This document shows, in pieces, positions 54,863 to 61,041 of a stretch of 64,000 bases of DNA. The translations under genes were made by a program, and so were the position numbers. Within the stretch, counting starts at the first letter, position 1, and the number at the start of each line of letters is the position of its first letter. Source of the stretch: Pseudomonas profundi (GTDB lineage: Bacteria > Pseudomonadota > Gammaproteobacteria > Pseudomonadales > Pseudomonadaceae). Under the pieces are notes generated by a model. The model saw only the letters and a program-made list of their open reading frames with translations, searched no databases and was not told where the DNA came from. The stretch lies in assembly GCF_008638305.1 (NCBI RefSeq), contig NZ_VTPZ01000001.1, forward strand, positions 558,001 through 622,000, given 5' to 3'.

Positions 54863-55528
54863 ATGAACGACCTCGCCCGCATCGTCTATGTCAGCCGTGC
54901 CACCTTCACGGCCAGCTCTGACGCGGTCAGGCCTGAAAAAGACGGGTCTGGCAGCGTCGCCGCAGACGCGATCGCGCTCGACAGCCATGTTGCGGAGATT
55001 CTGCGAACGTCACGCGCCGCCAACCTGCGCGACGGCCTGGTGGGAATGCTGTATTACCGTGACGGGTGTTTCATGCAGTGCATCGAAGGCGAGCGGCGCA
55101 AGGTTCACAAGCTGTACCGCAGATTACTGAAAGACCGTCGCCATCGGGATCTCAAGCTTCTGGTCAGCGAGCCCGTTGACCGTCTGGCTTTTCCCGAATG
55201 GCCGATGAAATTCGTACCCGATGATAATTACATGCAAGCGCTGCTGACCGAGCATGGATTCGAGCAATTCGATCCCTATCGCTTTGATCACTTTCTTGTC
55301 GAGCGCGTATTGGAGCTGATGCAGGGACTGGCAGACCCCACGATGAACGAGCCTGCTGCCGCACCCTCCCTGCCCGCCCGCGACACTGATTCACCCCGCC
55401 AGCATCCAACGCCCGCGACAGCCGACGATGCCGCCAGGCTTCGCCGTGATCGCATGGCAATGGGCATCAGCCTGCTCGCACTGGGCGTCAGCCTGGCCAA
55501 TCTCGCCTACGTCATTGCCAAGGTCTGA
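54863..55528 (+). CDS. BLUF blue-light receptor with C-terminal membrane helix
   Basis: 221 aa. BLUF domain in residues 1-125: flavin-contacting Tyr9 (IVYVSRA), Asn54 (SRAANLRDGLVGMLYYRDG), Gln72 (FMQCIEGE) and Trp113 (FPEWPMKF) are all present, so photochemistry is expected. About 22 extra residues (about 17-38) separate the first strand from the first helix compared with the usual domain. A Pro/Ala-rich linker (about 155-185) leads to one hydrophobic helix (MGISLLALGVSLANLAYVIA) at the very C-terminus, implying membrane attachment. No output enzyme is fused; it may act through a partner. Confidence 0.9.
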   Translation: MNDLARIVYVSRATFTASSDAVRPEKDGSGSVAADAIALDSHVAEILRTSRAANLRDGLVGMLYYRDGCFMQCIEGERRKVHKLYRRLLKDRRHRDLKLLVSEPVDRLAFPEWPMKFVPDDNYMQALLTEHGFEQFDPYRFDHFLVERVLELMQGLADPTMNEPAAAPSLPARDTDSPRQHPTPATADDAARLRRDRMAMGISLLALGVSLANLAYVIAKV

Positions 55529-56648: not shown

Positions 56649-56682
56649 AGCGGCGCGTCCAGGCTGTAAAGTACGCGCCGCT
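56649..56682. terminator. Strong hairpin between the hydrolase gene and yhhQ
   Basis: Perfect 10-bp stem AGCGGCGCGT/ACGCGCCGCT with a 14-base loop, 32 bases after the hydrolase stop. No T run follows, so it may be an mRNA 3'-end stabiliser or a factor-dependent terminator. It sits 15 bases before the riboswitch. Confidence 0.45.
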
Positions 56683-56695
56683 GCCAATCCCGGCA

Positions 56696-56730
56696 GCATG
56701 GGTTCCCTAACCCCATCAACTAAAAAGGTC
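56696..56730 (+). promoter_or_regulatory. preQ1-I riboswitch controlling yhhQ
   Basis: The sequence fits the class I preQ1 aptamer. P1 is ATGGG (56698-56702) with CCCAT (56712-56716); loop TTCCCTAAC; then an A-rich tail CAACTAAAAAGG. The GGTTC...ACCCC...AACTAAA pattern matches the class consensus I remember. CCT in the loop (56706-56708) can pair with AGG (56726-56728) to close the pseudoknot. That AGG is the Shine-Dalgarno of yhhQ, whose ATG follows 7 bases later, so preQ1 binding should block translation. Confidence 0.85.
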
Positions 56731-56735
56731 TCTGC

Positions 56736-57389
56736 ATGCACAACCTGTCGTTGCCGCGTCGTCGCGGCGTTCTCGCCATTCTTATCGCGTTCCACATTCT
56801 CATCATCATCGCCAGTAACTATCTGGTGCAGTTGCCGATGAGTATTTTCGGCTGGCAAACCACCTGGGGTGCATTCAGCTTCCCGTTCATTTTCCTGGCG
56901 ACTGATTTGACCGTTCGCTTACTCGGCAAGACGCCGGCGCGTCAGGTCATCTCCCGCGTCATGCTTCCAGCGCTGGTGGCTTCCTACGTGGTATCGGTGC
57001 TGTTCCAGGAGGGTGCTTTCCGCGGCCTGGGATCTCTGACCGAGTTCAATGAATTCGTGCTGCGCATCTCGCTCGCCAGCTTCGTTGCCTACGTCCTGGG
57101 CCAGTTCCTGGATATCCAGGTCTTCGACAGGCTGCGTCGCTTGCCGCAATGGTGGGTCGCGCCGAGCCTGTCTACAGTATTCGGCAACTTGCTGGACACC
57201 TATGCGTTCTTCTCGGTCGCTTTCTGGCAGAGCAGCAACGCCTTCATGGCTGAACACTGGCTGGAAATCGCCACCGTGGACTATGTGATCAAGCTGCTCG
57301 TCAGTCTGGTGCTGTTCGTGCCGCTCTACGGTTTGCTGCTCAAAGGCATCATGCGCATGATCGCAGGAAACAAGCCCGCCACGGCGTGA
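56736..57389 (+). CDS. yhhQ: Queuosine precursor transporter (YhhQ family)
   Basis: 217-aa inner membrane protein with about six helices that imports preQ0/preQ1 for queuosine tRNA modification. Family motifs include ASNYLVQLP near the first helix, FPFIFLATDLTVRLLGK near residue 50, and PSLSTVFGNLLDTYAFFSVAFW near 145. Its ribosome site is embedded in the preQ1-I riboswitch immediately upstream, which independently supports the assignment. Confidence 0.94.
   Translation: MHNLSLPRRRGVLAILIAFHILIIIASNYLVQLPMSIFGWQTTWGAFSFPFIFLATDLTVRLLGKTPARQVISRVMLPALVASYVVSVLFQEGAFRGLGSLTEFNEFVLRISLASFVAYVLGQFLDIQVFDRLRRLPQWWVAPSLSTVFGNLLDTYAFFSVAFWQSSNAFMAEHWLEIATVDYVIKLLVSLVLFVPLYGLLLKGIMRMIAGNKPATA

Positions 57390-61041
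<3,652 letters not shown>

Follow-up and report, generated by a model that had tools for sequence, protein, structure and literature searches.

The window, a 64,000-nucleotide stretch of the Pseudomonas profundi genome, carries a short structured element in the leader of yhhQ, which encodes a 217-aa transporter of 7-cyano- and 7-aminomethyl-7-deazaguanine (preQ0/preQ1). The YhhQ reading frame matches NF008406 at 337.6 bits (cut-off 252) and PF02592 at 117.3 bits, in agreement with the original prediction that a queuosine precursor importer lies downstream of the element; the nearest named relative is Pseudomonas saliphila (96%). As profile matches for QueC, QueF, and Tgt are all over cut-off in the host genome, the organism can probably make and use preQ1, with YhhQ adding salvage. 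Two genes upstream of yhhQ, a protein with a BLUF blue-light sensor domain (PF04940) is encoded at 54863-55528. Further downstream, the 3′ ends of ligB (NF005987, forward strand, to 59177) and speA (TIGR01273, reverse strand, 59122-61041) overlap tail to tail by 56 nt (59122-59177). The features of the leader are collected in Table 1.

Table 1. Features of the yhhQ leader and gene (window coordinates).
Feature	Position	Strand	Basis
-10-like hexamer TAAAGT; predicted transcript start near 56679	56667-56672	+	by eye, inference
P0 hairpin GCUGCC-AAUCCC-GGCAGC	56680-56697	+	predicted fold (pair probability 1.0); related leaders have other stems, also paired
P1 5′ strand AUGGG	56698-56702	+	sequence; pair counts in alignment
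Loop UUCCCUAAC, 9 nt	56703-56711	+	sequence; features as published in PMC10622847 and PMC11625349
UU motif, in loop	56703-56704	+	sequence
Anti-Shine-Dalgarno CCU, in loop	56706-56708	+	sequence
Specificity cytosine C56711, in loop	56711	+	by homology to E. coli
P1 3′ strand CCCAU	56712-56716	+	sequence; pair counts in alignment
L3: linker CAACU and A tract AAAAA	56717-56726	+	linker variable, A tract kept in relatives
A tract AAAAA	56722-56726	+	sequence
Shine-Dalgarno AAGG	56725-56728	+	A56726-G56728 can pair with CCU 56706-56708 (putative P2, after the published description of the E. coli structure)
yhhQ, preQ0/preQ1 transporter, 217 aa	56736-57389	+	PF02592, NF008406

Sequence and class of the leader element

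The element is a 31-nt stem-loop on the forward strand (56698-56728) whose pseudoknot partner lies in its own tail. It reads AUGGG, UUCCCUAAC, CCCAU, CAACU, AAAAA, and GG, and is followed by 7 nt up to the ATG at 56736. The original prediction had described an ATGGG/CCCAT stem, a 9-base loop, and an AAAAAGG tail 7 bases before yhhQ, and all of these counts are right on the sequence. The complementarity that it proposed between the loop CCT and the Shine-Dalgarno AGG is likewise present (56706-56708 and 56726-56728).

Type III preQ1 riboswitches of class I have been described from E. coli yhhQ, with reports of a cocrystal structure and of GFPuv repression that depends on preQ1 (PMC10622847). 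As published, their features are a short pyrimidine-rich loop, a UU that follows the 5′ P1 strand, and an AC that precedes the 3′ P1 strand and whose C reads preQ1, then a variable linker, four to five A residues, and an AAGG Shine-Dalgarno sequence engaged in P2; they occur almost exclusively in Pseudomonadota, on yhhQ (PMC10622847, PMC11625349). In the window, the AUGGG/CCCAU stem encloses the pyrimidine-rich loop UUCCCUAAC, U56703-U56704 follow the 5′ strand, and A56710-C56711 precede the 3′ strand. The tail AAAAAGG (56722-56728) combines the A tract with the Shine-Dalgarno sequence, the AGG of which is complementary to the loop CCU, and the gene downstream is a pseudomonadotal yhhQ with an NF008406 match above cut-off. 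P1 also covaries among relatives, with mixed results for measures beyond the covariation score. By sequence and by homology, the element is very probably a type III member of the class I preQ1 riboswitches and would repress yhhQ translation, ligand binding being attributed to it from its homologue. The original prediction of a class I preQ1 riboswitch with a pseudoknot formed through the yhhQ Shine-Dalgarno sequence is thus supported by the type III features, and the subtype can now be named.

The E. coli MG1655 yhhQ leader contains GGGTTCCCTCACCCC, the linker GGTTAATC, and AAAAAGG, and corresponds to the RNA studied in PMC10622847 (linker there GGUUAAUC). Both elements share the gene, the position, the GGG/CCC core of P1, the loop sequence UUCCCUNAC, the AC site, the A5 tract, and AAGG. 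The single loop difference is A56709 in the window for C in E. coli. The window linker CAACU has 5 nt whereas that of E. coli, GGUUAAUC, has 8 nt by the count given in PMC10622847, and in the window P1 is abutted by a 6-bp hairpin. Among other preQ1 systems, the class I type II riboswitch (Tte) likewise forms an H-type pseudoknot with AC before the 3′ P1 strand, but its loop is larger than that of E. coli, and published accounts assign the UU motif to types I and III. The class II riboswitch (RF01054, an HLout pseudoknot) is a different aptamer that is found on queT and is limited to Bacillota (PMC11625349). A likeness to it is seen only in nine genomes of the window's genus, which have an extra helix between P1 and the Shine-Dalgarno strand; the window element lacks this insert. 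The accessible parts of PMC3766115 and PMC9495176 do not name yhhQ.

For class I preQ1 riboswitches, PMC11625349 cites the Rfam family RF00522, and a search with it had been suggested as a check on the original prediction. No Rfam family reached its gathering score anywhere in the window, and RF00522 (gathering score 39 bits) had no hit even at E<=10 when 201 bases spanning the element were searched, which places the element below threshold. The E. coli yhhQ leader, an RNA with reported preQ1 binding, was likewise missed at E<=10, and none of three further genomes whose yhhQ leaders carry the element had an RF00522 match over cut-off. The model thus recognises neither the window element nor the E. 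coli type III element; as this test is blind here, the miss is no refutation, and Rfam was dropped as an arbiter on account of the missed known positive. Elsewhere in the host genome, two weak RF00522 matches were found (best 17.1 bits), and among 14 control genomes the model was over cut-off in one, which the search does not name.

Conservation and distribution of the element

The presence of the stem and tail in related yhhQ leaders, named as a test by the original prediction, was borne out in 104 of 109 fetched loci, where the element lies upstream of YhhQ (103 by script and one, L110, by eye). These 109, fetched with the YhhQ protein, comprise 79 distinct loci of 84 confirmed and 30 loci of 39 matching genomes; at least two of the 104 are repeats (by length and coordinates, L084 and L085 duplicate the L003 and L004 contigs). 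The five loci without the element (L077-L081) belong to distant relatives with 29-33% identity. The sequence pattern GGGTTCCCTNNCCCC..AAAAGG has a single match in the 4.2-Mb genome, and its reversed control has none. In the window's genus, the pattern is present in 32 of 37 genomes, and the remaining five coincide with the five that lack a YhhQ match. In the family it was found in 163 of 298 genomes, against two for the reversed control; among the family matches listed, with downstream genes covered for the genus comparison, no target other than yhhQ emerged. At the level of the class, single matches are weak evidence, because the pattern was found in nine and the reversed control in six of 369 genomes; seven of the nine, including the window and six inspected visually, are followed by a YhhQ-like frame. 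The other two (L120 and L121), considered as possible cases of another target gene, have no such frame downstream and look like chance. A phage-borne copy was also considered; the single exact match among viral contigs falls within a 764-aa reading frame and was taken as chance.

Several variants of the element occur. In two Comamonas loci (L051, 1438-1470; L052, 1411-1440), the loop is UUCCCUCGC followed by CCCC, so that a G takes the place of the conserved A ahead of the specificity C and one extra C is present. In Denitrificimonas caeni (L049, 1466-1494) and a gammaproteobacterial MAG (L020, 1466-1494), P1 has one G fewer (by script, AUGG/CCAU around a loop of 10 nt), and the L3 stretches are some of the shortest in the set. 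Among the family matches listed, genomes of one genus share the 3′ part of this element, CCCCATTCAAAAAGG.

For the analysis of covariation, 45 hand-picked cores of 70 distinct ones were aligned with that of E. coli, giving 46 sequences from gamma- and betaproteobacteria. Eleven cores with a long L3 and fourteen others were left out, and two sequences (L059 and L060) were entered cut at the nearer AAAGG. None of the 46 elements departs from the loop UUCCCU or the specificity C. P1 shows compensatory changes, with mixed controls. Changes on both sides were seen at four of the six pairs, and 80.4% of P1 cells pair, compared with 75.4 +/- 1.1 in shuffles and 29-57% when the strands are slid (42-48% for slides +1 to +3). 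At 0.116, the covariation score is higher than in any of the 500 shuffles and than in five of six slides, the exception being slide +3 at 0.162. Slides +1 to +3 also beat the structure on some change counts, and the number of further pair types is no better than in shuffles (76 of 500 as high). The outermost of the six pairs is unpaired in 36 of the 46 sequences. P2 hardly varies and so gains no support from covariation.

Accessory hairpins

In the window, P0 abuts P1 with no spacer. It would begin at the predicted transcript start, behind the -10-like hexamer, the place of which is taken by TATAGT or TAGAAT in many related leaders; a strict promoter scan gave no hit. Related pseudomonad leaders carry other stems at the position of P0, such as GCUUUC/GAAAGC, GCCGUC/GACGGC, and GUCGCC/GGCGAC. 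A stem of at least six pairs ending within 3 nt of P1 was found in 36 of 93 distinct leaders; control positions gave 4.3 on average and 8 at most. Perfect 6-bp stems formed from a leader's own arms numbered 26 of 68, against 7.1 +/- 2.2 with swapped arms (0 of 2000 shuffles as high), and the mean fold energy was -9.84 against -7.79 +/- 0.22 (0 of 400), although all of these discovery figures are inflated by the relatedness of the leaders. For a held-out set, the script matched 29 of 30 loci (L124-L153), from which 13 distinct leaders remained after repeats and already-used sequences were dropped. In these 13 leaders, P0 support is weak: the total number of pairs was 64 against 59.8 +/- 1.9 (54 of 2000 swaps as high), fold-based swaps were as good in 110 and 21 of 400, and perfect 6-bp stems were not enriched (one against a mean of 1.3; 1592 of 2000 swaps as high). 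Outside the pseudomonads, there is no support for counting P0 among the general parts of the riboswitch. By script, no hairpin abuts P1 in Serratia or Osedax-symbiont leaders, and the Providencia hairpin (L063 and L064) lies 10 nt from P1.

A second type of hairpin is inserted into L3 in nine genomes of the window's genus (G002, G006, G010, G013, G017, G022, G032, G033, and G034), the cores of which measure 61-65 nt compared with 32 in the window. The insert folds as a hairpin with compensated stems, including CGGACC/GGUCCG, CGGGCC/GGCUCG, and CGAGUC/GACUCG, and gives these loci (L086-L092, L094, and L095) an HLout-like topology. An L3 hairpin different from that of these loci is also present in Osedax-symbiont and Oceanospirillaceae leaders (L058-L060), whereas the window element has none. 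The riboswitch itself is of an already described kind; only the accessory hairpins may be new, and that P0 and the L3 hairpin are undescribed in the literature is not a firm claim. A tentative reading, somewhat on the doubtful side, is that the pseudomonad type III element might be more than a bare aptamer of 30-36 nt. In such a design, a 5′ P0 of variable sequence but kept pairing would abut and stack on P1 and would tune folding or protect the mRNA; one branch of the genus would in addition have an L3 hairpin that turns the H-type class I aptamer into an HLout-like one.

Proposed control of yhhQ and alternative explanations

On the model of the E. coli homologue, from which we infer the ligand, the pseudoknot geometry, and the direction of control, abundant preQ1 would bind between P1 and P2, paired to C56711. 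In the bound state, CCU 56706-56708 would pair with the AGG of A56726-G56728, closing an H-type pseudoknot and hiding the ribosome-binding site. At low preQ1, opening of the pseudoknot would allow the YhhQ importer to be made. Folding of 56679-56735 predicts that, without ligand, the RNA is partly in a shifted hairpin, GGGUU/AACCC (-16.8 kcal/mol), in place of the native P1 register (-16.4 kcal/mol), which is thus 0.4 kcal/mol from the minimum and has P1 pair probabilities of 0.29-0.47. With the specificity C paired and the Shine-Dalgarno sequence free, this shifted hairpin may represent the ON state. A 51-nt piece that cut P0 in half folds no better than its own shuffles (z 0.40), and single-sequence folding is not decisive as a test of the element.

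With ligand binding at this locus taken over from E. coli, the stem-loop could in principle be kept only as a hairpin at the ribosome-binding site or for mRNA stability, causing constitutive partial occlusion with no ligand. The predicted ligand-free fold, which leaves the Shine-Dalgarno sequence free, has been counted in favor of this explanation. It is nevertheless very improbable, since a plain hairpin has no need of UUCCCU and a specificity C that are invariant in 46 elements, and the E. coli homologue binds preQ1 with a KD of 57.9 nM (PMC10622847). That same RNA bears on whether preQ0 could be the main ligand, as might be supposed from the reported preference of YhhQ for importing preQ0 over preQ1 (PMC10622847). 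However, the affinity of the E. coli RNA for preQ0 is reported to be approximately 138-fold lower (PMC10622847), and the window loop is one position off that of E. coli (A for C at 56709), which makes sensing of mainly preQ0 exceedingly unlikely.

The P0 region could also be viewed as a DNA palindrome serving as a repressor operator instead of an RNA structure, given that it is palindromic and lies just downstream of the -10-like hexamer. An operator would be expected to keep its own sequence, but the stem varies while its pairing is kept, with 14 different 3′ arms among the 26 perfect stems; there is thus hardly any likelihood that P0 is an operator.

With the element read as a type III riboswitch, a queuosine-salvage switch is now placed in a pseudomonad genome. 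Type III switches are probably under-annotated, because RF00522 misses those of the window and of E. coli and passes its cut-off in none of the three further carrier genomes. The accessory hairpins are naturally occurring variants in which the tolerance of a minimal pseudoknot for a coaxial neighbor and for insertions into L3 could be studied.
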